Below are positions 4,402 through 21,147 of a stretch of 21,250 nt of DNA, one piece after another. The DNA is from a virus. Positions within the stretch are counted from its first letter, which is position 1; each line of letters starts with the position of its first letter. The notes under the pieces were generated by a model. It was not told where the DNA came from. It did no database searches and saw only the letters and a program-made list of their open reading frames with translations. A program made the position numbers and the translations under genes. The DNA lies in the IMG/VR virus record IMGVR_UViG_3300017991_003184, positions 1 through 21,250 of that record; one strand, 5' to 3'.

Positions 4402-4429
4402 TTAGCCGACTTGGGTATCACCATTAGGG

Positions 4430-4465
4430 AACCCGGCGGGAGAAATCCCGGCGGGTTTTCTTTTT
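4430..4465 (+). terminator. Rho-independent terminator before the serine-rich gene
   Basis: The arms at 4430-4441 (AACCCGGCGGGA) and 4446-4457 (TCCCGGCGGGTT) form a 12-bp stem with a single G-G mismatch, closing a GAAA loop at 4442-4445. The tract TTTTCTTTTT at 4456-4465 follows at once. This is a textbook intrinsic terminator on the + strand. It ends only 14 nt before the ATG of the next gene and runs into that gene's GGAGGA ribosome binding site, leaving no room for a promoter between them. Confidence 0.85.
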
Positions 4466-4479
4466 GGGAGGAACGAGCG

Positions 4480-5658
4480 ATGTCAGATCGAGTGATTGTC
4501 ACGGTGCGGTTTCCAGCCGCCGATACCACTGTCATCGCCTCCCGATCTCTTCAGATATACGACGCCAACGAGCGGATTGCGGACCCGGAGGCATCGCCGC
4601 TGAAAACGGCGGCATTGGCCGCAGCCACGACCAAGTACGAATACGAGACGGACGAGGGCAAGCTGCTTGAGTACGTGCTAGTCGATACGGCACGCGACGG
4701 CACGCCGAGCGGAAAGGCGATCTTGCGAGTTGCGGCAGTGTCGGGCGCGCCGATTACGCCGGAGCCGATCCAACTGGTGATGGTCGAAGACCTGAGCGAA
4801 AGCAGCAGCGGCTCGGCAACCAGCGATTCGAGCGGCGGAAGCAGTACCAGTGCCAGCACGAGCAGCAGCAGCAGCGTGTCGGCATCGTCGGCCAGCAGCA
4901 GCAGCGAATCGAGCAGCAGCAGCAGCAGCGAATCGAGCAGCAGCAGTAGCAGTGAAAGCTCGCCGTCGTGGTCGTCTGCTTCGACGATCAGCGTGAGCCT
5001 GAGCAGCAGCACGGAGCAGGCCAGTAGCTTCAGCTCGATCAATAGCAGCAGCAGCAGCACGAACAGCTCCAGCAACACGAGCTCTAGCACGTCAAGTGCC
5101 AGCAGCGCCAGTACAACCAGCGTAAGCGGAAGCAGCGCAAGCAGTGAAAGCAGTAGCAGCCAAAGCCCGAGTAGCATATCGATCAGCCTGAGCAGCAGCA
5201 GTTCTAGCAGTGAAAGTAGCAGCAGCGAGAGCACGAGCAGCAGCACAAGTGCGACGGTGACGAGCAGCTCGCCGAGTAGCCAAAGCACGAGCAGCAGCGC
5301 AAGTGAAAGCAGCGGAAGCTCTGCAAGTAGCAGCACATCCAGTGCAAGCACCTTCAGTTCGATCAACAGTTCGTCGAGTAGCGGAAGCAGTGCGAGCACA
5401 TCGTCGAGCAGTTCCAGCAGCAGCAGCAGCCAAAGCAGCAGCTCCAGCAGCAGTTCGAGCAGCAGCTCGTCAAGCAGCAATAGCAGCAGTAGCTCCGCAA
5501 GCAGCATGAGCGAGAGCAGCGAGTCGCCGTCATCGAATACGAGTAGTTCGAGCAGCGTGACGGAGAGCTTTAGCAGTACCAGCTCGGAAAGCACTGAGTC
5601 AAGTTCGAGCCAAAGCCAGGAAAGTAGCCTGAGTGCCAGTAGTGCGAGCGGAGTGTAA
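4480..5658 (+). CDS. Phage protein with long serine-rich C-terminal tail
   Basis: 392 residues from ATG 4480, with GGAGGA at 4467-4472. Residues 1-105 form a normal-composition domain with alternating hydrophobic strands (VIVTVRFPAADTTVIA, LLEYVLVDTARDG, KAILRVAAVSG), probably beta-rich. From residue 106 to the end the chain is mostly serine, with scattered Ala, Thr, Glu, Gln, Asn and Gly. This region must be disordered or extended. No LPXTG-like anchor, signal peptide or membrane helix is seen, so it is not an ordinary cell-surface serine-rich repeat adhesin. It lies between portal and protease, a common place for head accessory proteins. A decoration or surface-exposed virion role is plausible but unproven. 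A second, unrelated N-terminal domain with a serine-rich tail occurs at 12038-12898. Confidence 0.75.
   Translation: MSDRVIVTVRFPAADTTVIASRSLQIYDANERIADPEASPLKTAALAAATTKYEYETDEGKLLEYVLVDTARDGTPSGKAILRVAAVSGAPITPEPIQLVMVEDLSESSSGSATSDSSGGSSTSASTSSSSSVSASSASSSSESSSSSSSESSSSSSSESSPSWSSASTISVSLSSSTEQASSFSSINSSSSSTNSSSNTSSSTSSASSASTTSVSGSSASSESSSSQSPSSISISLSSSSSSSESSSSESTSSSTSATVTSSSPSSQSTSSSASESSGSSASSSTSSASTFSSINSSSSSGSSASTSSSSSSSSSSQSSSSSSSSSSSSSSSNSSSSSASSMSESSESPSSNTSSSSSVTESFSSTSSESTESSSSQSQESSLSASSASGV
4795..5655 (+). repeat. Low-complexity serine-codon tract
   Basis: About 860 bp of in-frame serine codons (AGC, AGT, TCG and others), including pure AGC runs near 4861-4930 and 5411-5480. 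There is no long exact tandem unit. The codons are mixed, so the DNA is less repetitive than the protein. The antisense strand reads as leucine-rich or alanine-rich open frames, which are by-products of this composition. Confidence 0.9.
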
Positions 5659-11593: not shown

Positions 11594-12025
11594 ATGTCGA
11601 TCGGTACGGTAGCACGAGCGGTGCGGGTACGGTGGCGGGACGACGATTCCGCGATCAGCGGCACGCCCGGACCGTACCTGGACAAGGCTCCGGCCGGGCT
11701 GGCGATGCCGCATGTGATTATGCGGATCACCGGGTCGCCGGTCGATGGGCGGGCGAACAGCGGCAGCGGCACGACGCGACGGGAGCGGACGGCACTGGAG
11801 TTTGAGATATGGAGCGACGACGGAGCGAACGCGCTGGACGTGCTGGCGCGGAAGCTGCACACGACGTTCGACAATGCACCGCTGGTGCTGGACGAGGGCA
11901 ATTTGCTGTACTGCCGATTCGAGAACGAGTTCACGGCCAAAGACGCAAAGTGGCGCAACGTACGGGTCCATACGATAGCGTATGAGGTGTTCCGGTCGAC
12001 GACCGAGACGACAAACCCGGAATAA
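11594..12025 (+). CDS. Tail terminator / tail-completion protein (DUF3168-like)
   Basis: 143 residues; the ATG is 1 nt after the previous stop. The layout fits tail terminator proteins that cap the tail tube: an N-terminal helix-turn region, YLDKAPAGLAMPHVIMRITG (matching the 'aP.g..fPyv' pattern of DUF3168-type proteins), a central strand LEFEIWSDDGANALDVLARK and a C-terminal strand VRVHTIAYEVFRS. It follows a gp10-like gene and precedes the tail proteins, the usual place for this function. Confidence is moderate because the family is divergent. Confidence 0.72.
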   Translation: MSIGTVARAVRVRWRDDDSAISGTPGPYLDKAPAGLAMPHVIMRITGSPVDGRANSGSGTTRRERTALEFEIWSDDGANALDVLARKLHTTFDNAPLVLDEGNLLYCRFENEFTAKDAKWRNVRVHTIAYEVFRSTTETTNPE

Positions 12026-12037
12026 GGAAAAGGGATA

Positions 12038-12898
12038 ATGGCTGCTGTAAAGACGCTGGACGCAACATTGAAGGCCGTGGCGACGTGGCAGTATTGGAAC
12101 ACGGACGCCATCGGATCGACCAAGGACGAGGACACCGTAACGGCGGCGGCCGTGTTGACCAGCGGGCAGGGCGTGAACGAATCGAACAATATGTATCGGG
12201 CCCGGTACACGATCGAGCAGGGCTCGCCGACGGACATCGACTTGCGAGATTTGACGGACGCATTCGGGCTGGACAAGCCGTTTGACAATATCAGCGGCGT
12301 GCTGATCCAGAACAGGACGACGACCAGCGGGCAGCACCTGCTGGTCGGGCCGCAAGGCGTGGCCAACGGCTGGAGCGCTCCGTTCGACGGAGACGCGGAC
12401 GGGAAACTGGTCTGCCGGGCCGGCGGGCACGTCAGCTTGGCGAGCCCGGTGAACCGGGTGAGCGTGGGCGATGCGAACAAGGTGCTGCGGATTACGCACG
12501 ACGGTGCAGCGGCGGCCGACATATCGGCGGAGGTCGTGCTGTTTGGCGTATGGGAGGAGACCAGCAGCAGCGGCAGCAGCTCGACCAGCAGCAGCTCGTC
12601 GAGTTCCAGCAGCAGTTCAAGTTCTAGCCAGAGCGTGAGCAGCAGTTCGAGTAGCAGCCAGAGCACGAGCAGCACGAGCAGCTACAGCAGTTCGAGCAGT
12701 AGCTCGGTAAGCTCGGTGGTGGAGACCAGCGGCAGCGAGTCGAGCAAGAGCGAATCGAGCGAGAGCTTTAGCCTGAGCAGCAAGTCGAGCATGAGCGAAT
12801 CGGACCGGAGCGAATCGAGCGAGAGCTTTAGCCTGAGCAGCAAGTCGAGCATGAGCGAATCGGACCGGAGCGAATCGAGCGCTAGCGAATCAACGTAA
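12038..12898 (+). CDS. Tail-region protein with serine-rich C-terminal tail
   Basis: 286 residues from ATG 12038, with GGAAAAGGGATA upstream. Residues 1-175 form a folded, probably beta-rich domain: RARYTIEQGSPTDIDLRDLT, DAFGLDKPFDNISGVLIQNR, then strands ending in AEVVLFGVWEE. I recall similar domains as unassigned proteins in environmental phages, but cannot name the family. Residues 176-286 are serine-rich, first almost pure serine, then mixed with Glu, Lys, Met and Asp. The last part contains two exact 20-residue repeats (SESSESFSLSSKSSMSESDR). The gene lies between the tail terminator-like gene and the tail-tube-like genes, so a tail surface or minor tail role is likely. Its folded domain is different from that of the other serine-rich protein at 4480. 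Confidence 0.7.
   Translation: MAAVKTLDATLKAVATWQYWNTDAIGSTKDEDTVTAAAVLTSGQGVNESNNMYRARYTIEQGSPTDIDLRDLTDAFGLDKPFDNISGVLIQNRTTTSGQHLLVGPQGVANGWSAPFDGDADGKLVCRAGGHVSLASPVNRVSVGDANKVLRITHDGAAAADISAEVVLFGVWEETSSSGSSSTSSSSSSSSSSSSSSQSVSSSSSSSQSTSSTSSYSSSSSSSVSSVVETSGSESSKSESSESFSLSSKSSMSESDRSESSESFSLSSKSSMSESDRSESSASEST
12748..12881 (+). repeat. Exact 60-bp tandem repeat, 2.2 copies, in frame
   Basis: The sequence at 12748-12821 is identical to that at 12808-12881, a period of exactly 60 bp, so the coding frame is kept and each unit adds 20 residues. The copies start near AGCGAATCGAGCGAGAGC (12749 and 12809), and a partial third copy begins at 12869. Complete nucleotide identity, in contrast to the mixed codons of the other serine tracts, suggests a recent duplication by slippage or unequal recombination. 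Confidence 0.95.
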
Positions 12899-12913: not shown

Positions 12914-13294
12914 ATGTCCGTAGTCAGCGGCAAAGACGGCAAGATAATGATCGGCGAAACATCGCTGGCCGAGATCACCAAGTGGACGTTCAATCCGACC
13001 GCCAACGTCGGCGCGTGGCACGGCAGCGGAGGCGGAGGGTATAAGAAGCGGGTGGCCGGCGTGAAGGACGGCAGCGGCGACATCGAGTTCAAGGTCGACG
13101 AATCCGACATGATCTACGATACGATCCCGGAAGGGACCAGCGTGACGCTGTTGCTGTACCGGGATGGCACCAACTACTTTAGCGTGCCGGCGATCATCAC
13201 CGGTATCGATTTTGAGGTCGACATCGACGACGGCGAGCCGAACAGCGGCAGTGCATCGTTCGAGACGAACGGAGCCTGGACCGACAACCCGTAA
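12914..13294 (+). CDS. Tail tube-like protein, paralogue 1 (probable major tail protein)
   Basis: 126 residues. It opens with SVVSGKDGKIMIGETSLAEI and KWTFNPTANVG, has a central G-S-G-D-I-E strand, and ends in FEVDIDDGEPNSGSASFETN. The small beta-sandwich pattern, with WTF near the start and the V-D-I-D-D-G turn before the last strand, fits short tail tube proteins that stack as hexameric rings around the tape measure. Its position before the tail chaperones and tape measure is canonical. The strongest ribosome binding site in the window precedes it, so it is the best candidate for the main tube subunit. Three related genes follow in tandem. Confidence 0.78.
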   Translation: MSVVSGKDGKIMIGETSLAEITKWTFNPTANVGAWHGSGGGGYKKRVAGVKDGSGDIEFKVDESDMIYDTIPEGTSVTLLLYRDGTNYFSVPAIITGIDFEVDIDDGEPNSGSASFETNGAWTDNP

Positions 13295-13308
13295 GAGAGG
13301 GAGCGGCG

Positions 13309-13686
13309 ATGGCAACGGTAAGCGGCAAAGACGGTAAGGTGCTGAACGGCTCGATACAGATCGCCGAGATCACCAAGTGGACGTTCAATCCGACCGCGAA
13401 CGTGGGCTCGTGGCATAGCAGCAGCGGCGACGGGTCGAAGGCTCGCGTTGCCGGCACAAAGAGCGGCAGCGGAGACATTGAGGGCAAAATCGACGAGGAC
13501 TCCAGCCTGTACGACGATATGCAGGAGGGGTCGACCGTCCAACTGTACCTGTACCGCGACGGGTCGGACTACTTTGAGTTCGATGCAGTGATCACCGGCA
13601 TCGACTTCGAGGTGGACATCGACGACGGCGAGGTGAATAGCTTTACCGCATCGTACGAGACGAACGGCGAGTGGTCCGATAACTGA
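13309..13686 (+). CDS. Tail tube-like protein, paralogue 2
   Basis: 125 residues, with GAGAGGGAG upstream of ATG 13309. It is the closest relative of paralogue 1: the same SGKDGK opening, the identical EITKWTFNPTANVG block, and ITGIDFEVDIDDGE near the end. At DNA level the two share an exact 35-nt run (12968-13002 versus 13363-13397) within otherwise diverged sequence, pointing to duplication or gene conversion. It differs in the loop after residue 35 and in surface charges. It may be a second tube subunit, a minor tail protein or a decoration protein. Confidence 0.75.
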   Translation: MATVSGKDGKVLNGSIQIAEITKWTFNPTANVGSWHSSSGDGSKARVAGTKSGSGDIEGKIDEDSSLYDDMQEGSTVQLYLYRDGSDYFEFDAVITGIDFEVDIDDGEVNSFTASYETNGEWSDN

Positions 13687-13700
13687 CCGAGGCGGGACCG

Positions 13701-14081
13701 ATGACCGTAATATCAGGACAAGGAGGGAGCGTCGCGAGCGACGACGTGCTCGTGGCGGAGGTTACGCGGTGGACGTTTTCGCGCCGGAGCAACAACCCGC
13801 AGCATCACGGCAGCGGAGACGGAGGATTTGCGACGAGCGTGCCCGGAGTACGGCGCGGCAGCGGCACGATCGAGGGCAAGGTAGACGACGATAATTGGGT
13901 GCTCGATCAACTGGAAGAAGGGAGCGAAGTCTCGCTGACGCTGAACCGGTTTGGCACAACGGGATGGGTGTTCCCGGCGATTATCGACAGCATTGATTTT
14001 GACGTGGACATTGACGACGGAGCGCCGACGAGCTTTGCAGCATCGTTCTCGACGCAAGGCGACTACACGGGATCGGATTAG
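13701..14081 (+). CDS. Tail tube-like protein, paralogue 3
   Basis: 126 residues from ATG 13701, with GAGGCGGGACCG upstream. It keeps the family frame: TVISGQGGSVASDDVLVAEV, RWTFSRRSNN, GSGTIEGKVDDDN, then FDVDIDDGAPTSFAASFSTQ. The segment after WTF is basic (SRRSNN), a trait shared with paralogue 4 and absent from copies 1 and 2, so the four genes fall into two pairs. The Trp in NWVLDQ and in GWVFPA distinguishes it from the others. Function is inferred from relatedness to the tube-like set. Confidence 0.72.
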   Translation: MTVISGQGGSVASDDVLVAEVTRWTFSRRSNNPQHHGSGDGGFATSVPGVRRGSGTIEGKVDDDNWVLDQLEEGSEVSLTLNRFGTTGWVFPAIIDSIDFDVDIDDGAPTSFAASFSTQGDYTGSD

Positions 14082-14097
14082 CCGGGAATGAGGCGAA

Positions 14098-14469
14098 ATG
14101 TCGGTAGTATCAGGAAAAGGCGGCGGCGTGACGATGGAAGGCGCCGTCGTATTGAAAATACTGCATTGGACGTTCCGGCGTCGCTCGAAGAACAAAGCGT
14201 ACTCGACGGGCGACGAGCCGGGGTACCTGCGACGCGATGCGGGAGTGAAAGACGGCAACGGCACGATCGCCGGGCTGATGGACGAAGACGACAGTATCTT
14301 GGACAAGATCACGGAGGGCACTGAGGTATCGTTGCAGTTGAAGCGAACGGCAACCGAGTCATTCACGGTGGAGGCGATCATAGACGAGATTACGTTCGAC
14401 GTGGACATCGACGGCGGGAGGCCGAACAGCTACGTCGCATCGTTTTCCACGAACGGCACATTCACATAG
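14098..14469 (+). CDS. Tail tube-like protein, paralogue 4
   Basis: 123 residues from ATG 14098, with GAATGAGGCGAA upstream. It retains SVVSGKGGGV at the start, HWTFRRRSKN, GNGTIAGLMDEDDS, and FDVDIDGGRPNSYVASFSTN near the end. It is the most diverged member: it replaces the acidic patch after the central strand, has more basic residues and lacks the charged C-terminal tail of the others. It lies 12 nt upstream of the tail chaperone gene. It may be a terminal or minor ring protein of the tube, an inference from its place at the end of the array. Confidence 0.72.
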   Translation: MSVVSGKGGGVTMEGAVVLKILHWTFRRRSKNKAYSTGDEPGYLRRDAGVKDGNGTIAGLMDEDDSILDKITEGTEVSLQLKRTATESFTVEAIIDEITFDVDIDGGRPNSYVASFSTNGTFT

Positions 14470-14481
14470 CGGAGGGCGAAT

Positions 14482-14973
14482 ATGGAGGCATTGGCACGAG
14501 TGACCGCCGCACCGGTCACGCTTTCGATCAACGGCCGGGACGTGATCCTGGACGGGTTGGGAGCGAAGGACTTTGGCGCGATCGAACAGGAGATATTGCG
14601 GCTGCGGAAAGACCCACTGGCCGTGGTGGCCCCGCACTTGGCGGCAATACCGGAGGCGCTGGCCGAGAAGCTGTTGAACCGAGCGTACAAGGACGCGAAG
14701 GCGGAGAACAGGGTAACGCCGGAAGAGGCGAGAGAGTGGATCGACGGCCTGACCGGGCTGTCGTTTTGTTTTTGGTACTGCCTGGAAAAACGGTACCCGG
14801 GCGAGTTCTCGAAGGCCGCTATTTTCGAGTGGCTGGAGGGCGTGGACGAGGAGGAGCTGGAGCGGCTGAAGGCATTGCGGGACCAAGCGGCCGCAATTGA
14901 TACGGCGGGAAATTCGACTGGCCCGGCGCAGCGTCGACGGCGTCGGGCGAAAAGACGACGTCGGCGAAAATGA
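14482..14973 (+). CDS. Tail assembly chaperone, gpG-like
   Basis: 163 residues from ATG 14482, with GGAGGGCGAAT upstream. It begins with a beta element (PVTLSINGRDVILDGLGAKD) followed by helices (IEQEILRLRKDP, IPEALAEKLLNRAYKDAKAE, EEAREWIDGLTG), the usual form of siphophage tail chaperones that coat the tape measure before tube assembly. The frame ends in an arginine-rich tail (QRRRRRAKRRRRRK). A -1 frameshift signal at 14907-14948 would divert some ribosomes after residue 144 into the next frame, giving a fused G-GT product of 240 residues. The overlap of this gene's stop with the next ATG (ATGA at 14970-14973) would also allow reinitiation. Confidence 0.85.
   Translation: MEALARVTAAPVTLSINGRDVILDGLGAKDFGAIEQEILRLRKDPLAVVAPHLAAIPEALAEKLLNRAYKDAKAENRVTPEEAREWIDGLTGLSFCFWYCLEKRYPGEFSKAAIFEWLEGVDEEELERLKALRDQAAAIDTAGNSTGPAQRRRRRAKRRRRRK
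14907..14948 (+). other. Programmed -1 ribosomal frameshift signal (G to GT)
   Basis: The heptamer G GGA AAT at 14907-14913 is in the zero frame of the upstream gene, as X XXY YYZ requires, and differs only in the last base from lambda's G GGA AAG. After a 7-nt spacer, 14921-14929 (GCCCGGCGC) pairs with 14940-14948 (GCGTCGGGC) in a 9-bp stem with one G-T wobble and a 10-nt loop. The -1 frame is open from 14901 (stop TGA at 14898-14900) through 15200. A slip here therefore joins residue 144 of the G-like protein to FDWPGAAST and then to the downstream frame. Confidence 0.88.
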
Positions 14974-15203
14974 ACTGGGTGTACTTTGCGTGGCAGTTGC
15001 TGGCCCACGGCCAGATACCGTTCCAGGACTGGGAGAACTGGACGCTGTACCAGTGCCGGCTGGCGTGTTTGACCGAGAAGCAGGCGAAGGGCGGCGGGCT
15101 GTCGGCGGCTGAGGCGAAGGCGGCGACGCGGCTAAAGAAGGAGCGGCGGAAACGGACGTTGCAAGATTTGGAGATGACGGACGATGGCCTCGAAAGTAGC
15201 TGA
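14970..15203 (+). CDS. T region of tail assembly chaperone (GT extension)
   Basis: 77 residues from ATG 14970, although the main product is probably the -1 frameshift fusion, which adds 96 residues starting at base 14913. The region starts with NWVYFAWQLLAHGQIPFQDW, a short aromatic-rich helical segment fitting the compact T domain, and continues as a basic helix (KAATRLKKERRKRTLQDLEM). In lambda-type phages the T domain of gpGT contacts the tail tube protein. No good Shine-Dalgarno site precedes ATG 14970, so independent initiation is less likely than frameshifting. The 3' end overlaps the tape measure start by 20 nt. Confidence 0.75.
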   Translation: MNWVYFAWQLLAHGQIPFQDWENWTLYQCRLACLTEKQAKGGGLSAAEAKAATRLKKERRKRTLQDLEMTDDGLESS

Positions 15204-16590
15204 AGCGTACGTGGAGGTGCGGGCCGATACGAGACGGGTTGGCAAGGACCTCGTACGCGCAAAGCCGGTGATGATGCGGGCTATGCAGGGCCTGAGTCGG
15301 TCGTTCGGAAGCAGCTTTGGGCAGATAGTGATCGGCGGTATGCTGATCGGGGCGGCACGCGCTTCCGTGAAAGCGGCCGGCATACAGCAAGCGGCCGAAG
15401 CCCAGTTGCAGCAGACGCTGAAGAGCACAGGAAACGCTGTCGGCCTGAGCTTGGATCAACTGAAAAAGCACGCCACGTTCCTCCAGAAGAACGGGATATT
15501 CGGCGACGAAGAGACGTTGAGGATGATGAGCCAGCTGGCGACGTTTACGAACATTACCGGCCAGGAGTTCTTGGATGCGTCGACGATCATTGAAGACTTG
15601 GCAGTGAAGATGGGAGGCGACCTGAAAGGCTCGATGTTGCTGGTAGCCAAGGCGATGGACGAGCCGATTACCGGGTTGACGATGATGCGGCGAGTCGGCG
15701 TATCGTTCAGCGAGCAGGAGAAGGCGGTGATCAAGAGGCTGGCCGAAACCGGGCACATGGCGGAAGCACAACGGAAAATACTCAGCTTGCTGGCAAGACA
15801 GATGGGAGGCGCGAATGCGGCTGAGGCGCAGACGTTCAATGGGCAAATGGTACAGGCGAAAAACGCCCTGGGCGACGTGATGGAAGTGATCGGCGTCCAG
15901 TTGATGCCGGTGATTATCGACTTCGCGAAGATGCTGAAGGTCGGCGCGGAGATGTTTCAAGAAATCGACAAGGCAACGGGCGGAGCCGCATCGAAAATAC
16001 TCCTGGCGGCAGCGGCGGTAGGCGTGTTGACAATCGCGTTCCGGGCGATGGCCGGCGCGCTGGCCAGCACCGGGTTCGGAGCGATCATCGTGCTGGTCGG
16101 TGTGTTGATCGGGCTGGCGATCCAGTTCCAGGACGCATGGCTGCCGGTGGTGAAGAAGTGGTGGAAGCACTTGAAGATCGTTATCGGGATTTTGAACCCG
16201 ATCATCGGCGCCATCATGCTGATCAACAAGCTGTTCGGCACGCAGGCGGACGTGGCGAAAGCCGAAGAGGTGCAAGCGGGCTTGAAAGCCGCGGAGGAAG
16301 GCAAGGCGGCGTCGGCAGCTCCGACGATGGGAGCCAAGCCTATCGAGCCTGCCGGACAACAGGCGGCATCGGGCGAAGCCCACGCCATTAAAGCGACGTT
16401 TGTGGGCCTGGAAGAACTGTCGAAGACGATCCAGGAGAAGATGCTGGGCGATGACGACAAGACGATGGCCAAGCAGCAGGCGGGCGACATTGCGGACCTG
16501 AAAGAGCTGACGCAGGAACAGTTGGACGTGATGAAGCAGAATATGAACCCGGCGATGACCCAGGGACTAAGCGCAGTGGGAGTAAGCTGA
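15184..16590 (+). CDS. Tape measure protein
   Basis: 468 residues from ATG 15184, with GGAG 13 to 10 nt upstream. The N-terminal region is helical and repetitive (YVEVRADTRRVGKDLVRAK, then GIQQAAEAQLQQTLKSTGNA), typical of tape measure proteins, and includes MDEPITGLTMMRRVGVSFSE and AQTFNGQMVQAKNALGDVME. Hydrophobic stretches at about 45-60, 270-318 and 328-350 (VGVLTIAFRAMAGAL; IIVLVGVLIGLAIQF) are the membrane-penetrating helices of this family. The C-terminal region is polar and disordered. It follows the G/GT chaperones, as expected. At roughly 0.15 nm of tail per residue this predicts a tail near 70 nm, short for a siphovirus. Confidence 0.9.
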   Translation: MASKVAEAYVEVRADTRRVGKDLVRAKPVMMRAMQGLSRSFGSSFGQIVIGGMLIGAARASVKAAGIQQAAEAQLQQTLKSTGNAVGLSLDQLKKHATFLQKNGIFGDEETLRMMSQLATFTNITGQEFLDASTIIEDLAVKMGGDLKGSMLLVAKAMDEPITGLTMMRRVGVSFSEQEKAVIKRLAETGHMAEAQRKILSLLARQMGGANAAEAQTFNGQMVQAKNALGDVMEVIGVQLMPVIIDFAKMLKVGAEMFQEIDKATGGAASKILLAAAAVGVLTIAFRAMAGALASTGFGAIIVLVGVLIGLAIQFQDAWLPVVKKWWKHLKIVIGILNPIIGAIMLINKLFGTQADVAKAEEVQAGLKAAEEGKAASAAPTMGAKPIEPAGQQAASGEAHAIKATFVGLEELSKTIQEKMLGDDDKTMAKQQAGDIADLKELTQEQLDVMKQNMNPAMTQGLSAVGVS

Positions 16591-16591
16591 T

Positions 16592-17554
16592 ATGCCGACT
16601 ACAACCGGAGCAAAGAACCCGGGCACTGACGAGATCGAGCAAATCTCGTACGAAGAGATCGGCGGTAGCCCGACGTTCGCGGCGTCGAATAACGGCATTA
16701 CAGCCCGGCAGATTTACAAGATGCCGTGGACTTCTATCGATCAGTTCATCCGGGAGAGCTTCCCGCCGGCAGTTGAAGCTAACTGCGAGTACATCCACGA
16801 AAACAACAGGCCGTTTCCCGGAAAGCCAAAACTGATAACGGACAAGATCACGGTCGAGCCGTGGTTGCCGGACAAACAAACTGGGTCGCAGGAACACACG
16901 TACGACGGAGTCAATACGTACTCGCACGCCAGAGTGACTATCGACTACGCGACGCTGCCACGGCAGGGAACCGTACCGTACGGGACACACCGGATAACGA
17001 TGGGGGCCGAGTTCATCGTATTGCCGAAGTTGAAAACGCAGTTTGTCGAAGACGGCAACACCGTGGCCGACACGCCGACGGACGCCGACAAGACGATGGA
17101 CGACGACGAGGTGCAGATCACGAAGGTGATCCCGACGATCGAGCATACACTGAACTTCGTGTCGATGCCGAACCCGCCGTTCGACAAAATCCGCGAGCAG
17201 CTTGGCACGGTAAACAAGGACGAAGGCGACAGCAACCTGTTTAGCGCCGAGCCGGGTACGTTGCTGTTCCTGGGCATCGAGGGCGAGGAGGGCTTCAACA
17301 CCGAGGGCGAAACCGCATGGGATATCAGCTACCGGTTCTCTGAAAAGCGAATCCACGGGTACAACCCGGGGGAGGGCGAGACGATATTCGGGTGGAATCA
17401 CTTCTACAATAAGCAGACGGGCACCTGGGAGGTCGTGATCCGTCCGAAGGACGGCGGCAACGGAACTGTGTACGACGAGTCGCTGTTTACGAAGCTGTTT
17501 ACCGTGTTCGGTTGCGTGCATGAAGACGAGCAAGGCTATGACCATACCGCGTAG
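16592..17554 (+). CDS. Tail protein downstream of tape measure, family unknown
   Basis: 320 residues; the ATG is 1 nt after the tape measure stop. Largely beta with conserved-looking aromatic blocks: VTIDYATLPRQGTVPYGTHR, AEFIVLPKLKTQF, PTIEHTLNFVSMPNPPFDKI, TAWDISYRFSEKRI and GWNHFYNKQTGTWEVVIRPK near the end. No signal peptide, membrane segment or catalytic motif is seen. The slot just after the tape measure is where distal tail proteins are encoded in many siphophages, so a distal tail or tip role is the leading guess, without clear sequence proof. Confidence 0.65.
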   Translation: MPTTTGAKNPGTDEIEQISYEEIGGSPTFAASNNGITARQIYKMPWTSIDQFIRESFPPAVEANCEYIHENNRPFPGKPKLITDKITVEPWLPDKQTGSQEHTYDGVNTYSHARVTIDYATLPRQGTVPYGTHRITMGAEFIVLPKLKTQFVEDGNTVADTPTDADKTMDDDEVQITKVIPTIEHTLNFVSMPNPPFDKIREQLGTVNKDEGDSNLFSAEPGTLLFLGIEGEEGFNTEGETAWDISYRFSEKRIHGYNPGEGETIFGWNHFYNKQTGTWEVVIRPKDGGNGTVYDESLFTKLFTVFGCVHEDEQGYDHTA

Positions 17555-20427: not shown

Positions 20428-21147
20428 ATGGGAGAGCTTTCTGATACGCTGGTTGTGATACCGGCGAGGTTGGCGTCTACGCGGCTGCCGCGCAAGGTAC
20501 TGATGGACGTCGGCGGCAAACCGCTGATGCAGTACGCATGGGAGAATGCGTGCGACGCTGTTGGCGACAAGAACGTGGTGATAGCGTCGAGCGACGACGA
20601 GGTGCTGGACCGAGCCCGGATATTTGGAGCCATTGGCCAGCGGACGGAACCGGCGAGAAACGGCACGCTGCGGGCTTACGACGCTGCCAGCAGGCTGGGC
20701 CGATCGTACGACGTGATCGTGAACCTACAGGCCGACGAGCCGGAAGTGCCGGCACAGGCGATCCGCGACGTGGCAGCGTTGGCGAGGTCGTTGGCCGATA
20801 ACGGAGGGGTCGCCACGTTGGTGTTCGACGGCGACCCGGCCGACGCCAACCCGCAGCAAACGAAAGTGGTTCTTGGCAGAGACAATCGCTGCCTGTTCTT
20901 TTCCCGCCGACCGCTGCCGTGCTGCAAGATGCACGCCGGAGTCTACGGTTACGGCTGGCGAACACTGTGCAACGTCGCGGACGCAGATGCGGACAGCGGC
21001 CAGTCGGACATCGGGCGGGCCGAAAGTCTGGAACAGCTCGACTGGCTTTGGGATGGCATCCCGATCTACGCAACGCGATGGAGCCGACCGTTGCTGAGCG
21101 TGAACACGATCGACGATCTGCTGACGTTCGAGGCCACGTTGAGCTAG
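20428..21147 (+). CDS. kdsB-like: KdsB-like CMP-sugar synthetase (3-deoxy-manno-octulosonate cytidylyltransferase family)
   Basis: 239 residues from ATG 20428, with AGGGCGAA upstream. It carries the nucleotide-binding opening VVIPARLASTRLPRKVL (Arg14, Lys23), the metal site VNLQADEP (Asp103), FFSRRPLP, HAGVYGYGW (His169) and ESLEQLDWLW. These correspond to E. coli KdsB blocks PARYASTRLPGKPL, VNVQGDEP, FSRATIP, HLGIYGYR and LEQLRVLW. KdsB makes CMP-Kdo from CTP and Kdo for lipopolysaccharide. Two departures stand out: the loop between the P and H motifs is about 15 residues shorter, and the usual DTPEDL reads NTIDDL, so Asn226 replaces a usual Asp. Activity may be altered, or another CMP-sugar may be made. 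It stands in the same run of + strand genes as the tail proteins. Confidence 0.85.
   Translation: MGELSDTLVVIPARLASTRLPRKVLMDVGGKPLMQYAWENACDAVGDKNVVIASSDDEVLDRARIFGAIGQRTEPARNGTLRAYDAASRLGRSYDVIVNLQADEPEVPAQAIRDVAALARSLADNGGVATLVFDGDPADANPQQTKVVLGRDNRCLFFSRRPLPCCKMHAGVYGYGWRTLCNVADADADSGQSDIGRAESLEQLDWLWDGIPIYATRWSRPLLSVNTIDDLLTFEATLS

Follow-up and report, generated by a model that had tools for sequence, protein, structure and literature searches.

Four tandem tail-tube paralogues in a virus genome fragment and a possible division of roles among them

The tail tubes of siphophages are generally described as polymers of a single protein. In phage T5, a duplicate of the tube protein, p140, makes up a single ring located between tube and Dit, and gp54 of T4 offers another precedent of this kind (PMC10038345). 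Several tube paralogues are also known from Bacteroidales T6SS loci of two architectures, which carry about five Hcp genes whose role was left unexplained (PMC4714493). As for the way in which successive rings hold on to each other, the tube protein of the siphophage vB_DshS-R4C (hereafter R4C) makes its ring-to-ring contacts through a long loop, in which W36 lies between discs and F46 and V33 pack onto the following disc at a hydrophobic surface (PMC10276861). Here, the stretch of DNA that we analyzed (the window) is an entire virus record of 21,250 bases, and it carries four adjacent genes, called c1 to c4 (table 1), which we compare with these systems.

Table 1. Tail-module features of the window and what they were named from
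Feature	Position	Strand	Remarks
Tail terminator/completion protein (gp17-like)	11594..12025	+	PF11367, E=1.2e-5, above the Pfam cut-off
phrog_22694-family protein, function unknown	12038..12898	+	C-terminal Ser-rich tail
Tube copy 1 (c1)	12914..13294	+	126 aa; phrog_1407, E=2e-6; tube fold
Tube copy 2 (c2)	13309..13686	+	125 aa; phrog_1407, E=2e-6; 66% identical to c1
Tube copy 3 (c3)	13701..14081	+	126 aa; phrog_1407 weakly, E=0.05; tube fold
Tube copy 4 (c4)	14098..14469	+	123 aa; phrog_1407 weakly, E=0.017
Probable tail assembly chaperone	14482..14973	+	From its place after the tube genes and before the tape measure
Small ORF, second chaperone-like by position	14970..15203	+	Overlaps the chaperone gene by 4 bases
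Tape measure protein	15184..16590	+	468 aa; phrog_27166, E=1e-36
Conserved gene after the tape measure	16592..17554	+	Homologues in L018 and L005

The array and its place in the tail module

The first-pass annotation of this DNA had singled out four consecutive genes of 123–126 residues with a common SG(K/Q)xG opening, a WTF motif, and a basic block after WTF in the last two, all of which is borne out: the four frames are intact, both motifs are present in c1–c4, and the basic block reads SRRS and RRRS in c3 and c4. The late acidic motif that it described is likewise found in all four copies, but its spelling is (E/D)VDID(D/G)G and not (V/D)VDID. Spacers of 14, 14, and 16 bases separate the genes, a purine-rich stretch lies 5' of each ATG, and the ribosome-binding energies are -8.5, -8.8, -7.8, and -5.6 for c1 to c4; c1 is therefore not separable from c2 and c3 on this measure, and we make no claim about dosage. 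When c1 is used as query against the record, it retrieves c2, c3, and c4 with E-values of 4e-55, 2e-33, and 2e-29, a similarity far above chance which, judged on the sequences, places the homology of the four copies beyond doubt. The pairwise identities are 66% for c1/c2, about 47–48% for c1/c3, 49% for c1/c4, 43% for c2/c3, 39% for c2/c4, and 46% for c3/c4. An assembly artefact is ruled out by these values, the copies being merely 39–66% identical. As for the proposed split into two pairs, that of c1 with c2 is plain from their identity, whereas that of c3 with c4 does not appear in the raw values, their 46% not exceeding the identity of either to c1, and emerges instead from a maximum-likelihood (ML) tree (99/99).

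The identity of c1–c4 as tail-tube proteins, also proposed at first pass, is well supported by sequence profiles, predicted folds, and synteny. Indeed, c1 and c2 match phrog_1407 (PHROG 1407, major tail protein), and c3 and c4, without strong family matches of their own, are joined to the tube family through c1; a Pfam search of c1–c4 returned no match. Furthermore, a profile built on 13 members of the family retrieved from the PDB a single phage protein, namely the R4C tail tube protein (8gtb, E=3e-4). Structure prediction, which had been put forward as a check, gave a tail-tube fold for the two copies modeled: the AlphaFold monomers of c1 and c3, of moderate confidence (mean pLDDT of 75 and 73), both display the tube topology of a beta-sandwich, a long beta2–beta3 loop, and a short helix, the loop being undefined at about residues 31–50 in each. 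Foldseek ranks tail-tube/Hcp proteins first for c1 and c3, with a probability of 1.00, the top matches including the R4C tube protein and that of the gene transfer agent, and a structural aligner gives Z-scores of 8.6 and 8.9 against R4C. PilZ barrels score equally high in this aligner, and a PilZ identity was set aside as a reflection of shared barrel topology; the identification hence draws jointly on sequence, fold, and synteny. By homology to the modeled c1 and c3, c2 and c4 are predicted to adopt the same fold. The net charge of the copies (-5 to -15) is compatible with an acidic lumen. None of the four proteins has any domain beyond the minimal tube domain, which does not favor the decorated tube that had been suggested as one possible outcome of the array.

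Tube genes usually lie before the chaperone and the tape measure. In the window, the order is terminator, phrog_22694 gene, four tube genes, chaperone, and tape measure, such that the array falls between the PF11367 terminator and the phrog_27166 tape measure, and the genes further upstream encode a portal–MuF fusion, a protease, an HK97-type capsid protein, and connector proteins. In 46 of the 56 other loci that we collected, the tube gene likewise has the phrog_22694 gene immediately before it. The chaperone gene has no PHROG or Pfam name, and homologues of it occupy the same place in the related loci L009, L010, and L018. No sheath was found among the window genes scanned against Pfam and PHROG, the window being a 21-kb fragment in which several genes have no family. 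The tape measure is truly short, as had been remarked, and those of single-copy relatives are similar (531 aa in L009 and 527 aa in L018). The extra copies are thus not explained by a long tail, the tape measure being no longer than in these relatives, and a role in replacing a missing terminator is unneeded, given the separate PF11367 terminator.

Beyond the tail module, the gene at 20428–21147 of the window encodes a cytidylyltransferase (PF02348, E=2e-23) that looks KdsB-like by eye; such a cargo is unusual and possibly serves surface sugars. In addition, two of the virus proteins have long Ser-rich, low-complexity tails (window 4411–5658 and about 12570–12898), the length of which varies among relatives (L009, L010).

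Copy number, duplication, and divergence of the stacking loop

Relatives of the tube family are found mostly in Pirellulales genomes and in viral contigs. In a sample of 397 genomes from the order to which a Pirellulales MAG belongs, 38 have the family, and in a sample of 398 from the class of that MAG, 25 do, the two samples overlapping. Across the 56 loci examined outside the window, which include the apparently near-identical L020 and L021, one tube copy is found in 54, among them all of the 41 loci from cellular genomes, two in 2, and four in none. The array is unique in this set, in agreement with the initial remark that most siphophages have one tube gene and some have two. Most of the fetched stretches span about 1.5 kb on each side of the match, which is enough to show a tandem neighbor. 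The two-copy loci are L006, where the count is a minimum because the contig ends there, and the distant L023. No close relative of the array came up when c4 or the post-tape-measure protein served as query, the tape measure retrieved distant relatives only, and no earlier description of such an array was found in the open-access literature.

Some of these loci have peculiarities of their own. The two adjacent tube genes of L023 (5927–6703) are 17% identical in the loop versus 41% elsewhere, and the tube ORF of L020 (3424–4149) and L021 bears a C-terminal extension of ~117 residues that is absent from other members. In L005 (6393–6650), the tube gene is directly followed by the post-tape-measure gene, the intervening chaperone and tape measure being missing, which suggests an element that has decayed or been rearranged.

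In the ML tree (44 sequences), c1–c4 form one clade (support 96/89), implying that the duplications happened in this phage lineage, and this clade neighbors the single-copy genes of L009 and L010 (91/88). Within it, c3 and c4 form the subclade mentioned above, and the grouping of c1 with c2 is weaker (90/68). Branch lengths are 0.09 for c1, 0.44 for c2, and about 0.6 each for c3 and c4, on top of a shared 0.5. With L009 as outgroup, relative-rate comparisons count 4 unique changes in c1 against 28 in c3, and 3 in c1 against 29 in c4, other outgroups giving the same direction with weaker or no significance. Family-conserved columns are broken 6 times in c1, 9 in c2, and 10 in each of c3 and c4, when the 37 relatives show at most 7 such breaks. 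From these comparisons, c1 is evidently the slow copy, closest to the single-copy relatives, and c3 and c4 are the fast ones. Moreover, dN is lower than dS in every pair (ratios of 0.3–0.7, which are rough, dS being high), and together with the intact frames, this indicates that all four copies have been kept as proteins. The two neighboring loci of the tree present the reverse configuration of the window, namely a phrog_22694 gene in three copies in L009 (16296–18630) and in two copies in L010 (7831–10773), both next to a single tube gene, when the window has one phrog_22694 gene and four tube genes. The locus is prone to tandem duplication.

When the sequences of 37 relatives are taken as reference, the copies resemble each other least in columns 28–52, that is, in the loop, and most near the C-terminus. 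Among the 123 circular placements of a 25-column segment, the loop has the lowest value for paralogue identity relative to that of the relatives, and a column shuffle gives p=0.002 for this placement. Identity in the loop falls to 24% for c2/c3, 20% for c2/c4, and 28% for c3/c4, versus about 47% in relatives of similar identity elsewhere, and values that low are reached by 2/192, 1/252, and 2/128 of the corresponding pairs of relatives, pairs that are not independent of each other. The profile alignment places R4C W36 at column 35 and R4C F46 at column 47, a residue match that is approximate, as a full MAFFT alignment moves W36 by one column. All 37 relatives have an aromatic residue at column 35, where c3 has His; at column 47, 33/37 have a hydrophobic residue and c4 has Asp; and at column 44, 32/37 have a basic residue, replaced by Ala in c3 and by Leu in c4. 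The nearly invariant T40 is lost in all four copies, and since c1 is among them, the change in the loop is not confined to c2–c4. A salt bridge between columns 44 and 117 with its charges swapped (E43–R118 in R4C; K/E in c1 and c2) was considered and dropped, for relatives usually have R/K with S at these columns. At the other end of the protein, synonymous codons near the C-terminus are also more alike among the copies, and the likeness of this region may come in part from gene conversion, which is why we do not use it as proof of co-assembly.

Possible roles of the four copies

As a reasoned hypothesis, we propose a functional division of the copies. A single ancestral tube gene would have given rise, through successive duplications in the phage lineage, to four tail-tube (major tail) proteins, which are probably co-transcribed from one late operon and made together. 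In such a scheme, c1 would have kept the ancestral role, polymerizing around the tape measure and forming most of the hexameric rings, and c2–c4, diverged mainly in the loop by which rings grip each other, would most likely supply a few specialized rings in one composite tube, on the model of T5 p140 and of the multi-Hcp tubes of Bacteroidales. Because the loops of c3 and c4 have lost canonical contacts, these two copies would hardly suit the repeating body of the tube and would be better suited to rings that touch another partner, probably at one of its ends, beside the tip or the terminator; c2, which is nearer to c1, might serve either as another subunit of the body or in a junction ring. 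Rings that differ in composition and specialized end rings, both envisaged at first pass, would also fit the site of divergence, an inter-ring loop. This attribution of the main tube to c1 and of specialized rings to c2–c4, in which expression, presence in the virion, and ring position are what we infer from the genes, is tentative, and we hold its chances to be nearly even. A bolder form of it, in which a siphophage tube would consist of up to four kinds of rings, stacked in an order set by paralogue-specific loops, appears doubtful to us. Four diverged subunits encoded together, set beside their single-copy relatives, would let one ask how rings acquire their identity and order.

Several other explanations deserve to be weighed against this division of labor. 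As the main rival, several copies might share one hexamer (for example, as three c1/c2 plus three c3/c4 heterodimers) and build a heteropolymer throughout the tube. We regard such mixed rings as somewhat unlikely, albeit with real arguments in their favor, as a Hcp2–Hcp3 heterohexamer of the Bacteroides fragilis T6SS has been solved (9vne) and stands among our structural matches, as T5 pb6 builds three-fold rings from two tube domains per chain (PMC9022992), and as the copies themselves fall into two pairs. Columns 91–126 also differ little between copies, which would permit shared neighbors, but this likeness is the one to which gene conversion may have contributed. However, the divergence is concentrated in the loop between rings, and c1 and c2 have the same residues (K/E) at columns 44 and 117, which are intra-ring in R4C, such that nothing demands alternation.

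The dispensability of the extra copies is a further possibility: c1 alone would matter, and the others would be leftovers or the transient amplification of a duplication-prone stretch. The recurrence of tandem duplication in the two nearest relatives, through the three and two phrog_22694 genes of L009 and L010, speaks in this sense, as do the faster evolution of c2–c4 compared with c1 and their larger number of broken family-conserved columns. Yet copies that are 34–61% different, open, free of frameshifts, preceded by sequences resembling ribosome-binding sites, and with dN below dS are neither recent nor decaying, and a benefit of dosage would favor identical copies, which makes this redundancy or neutral drift improbable. 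It is even less probable that the copies are interchangeable main subunits used for different hosts or conditions rather than in one virion: the full minimal tube domain is kept in all four, as such alternative tubes would need, but separate promoters or terminators could hardly be accommodated in gaps of 14–16 bases, and co-transcription is therefore expected. Lastly, the extra proteins could act as decoys that occupy a host sensor of tubes such as DSR2, as DSAD1 does by mimicry. DSR2 recognizes the tube protein, whose stacking hairpin plugs into the sensor (PMC10973363), and the stacking loop is precisely the diverged part here; decoys would nonetheless have no need to keep a position in the tail operon or all the elements of a ring, and we consider them the most remote of these explanations.

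Comparison with known tail tubes

The R4C tube protein (8gtb, vBDshSR4C_010) resembles the array members in its length of 130 aa, its minimal tube domain, its profile match, and the position of its gene before the chaperone and the tape measure; in contrast to the array, R4C has one such gene, and its tube is made of 120 identical subunits in 20 rings (PMC10276861). Within the same family as c1–c4, gp41 of Pelagibacter phage HTVC026P lies beside the chaperone (or second tail gene) and the tape measure in the same order, and the Pirellulales tube genes lie beside the phrog_22694 gene in most loci, but the HTVC026P and Pirellulales loci are single-copy in every case examined. From the viewpoint of paralogy, the Bacteroidales T6SS, with the Hcp2–Hcp3 structure cited above, also unite several diverged tube paralogues in one system, although this system is a contractile secretion apparatus of cells and not a phage tail operon; the array would nevertheless bear on why these T6SS carry several tube paralogues, a question left open by those who described them (PMC4714493). 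Likewise, T5 pb6 contains a duplicated tube domain, fused in one chain, when the window has four ORFs with their own starts and stops. Finally, T5 p140 and T4 gp54 share with c2–c4 the nature of a tube-gene duplicate that has diverged and kept the tube domain, the duplication being seen here in a clade supported at 96/89. Nevertheless, p140 is only 9% identical to pb6, when the array copies are 39–66% identical to each other, and it is encoded in the baseplate module, whereas c2–c4 stand in tandem with c1, upstream of the chaperone and the tape measure.
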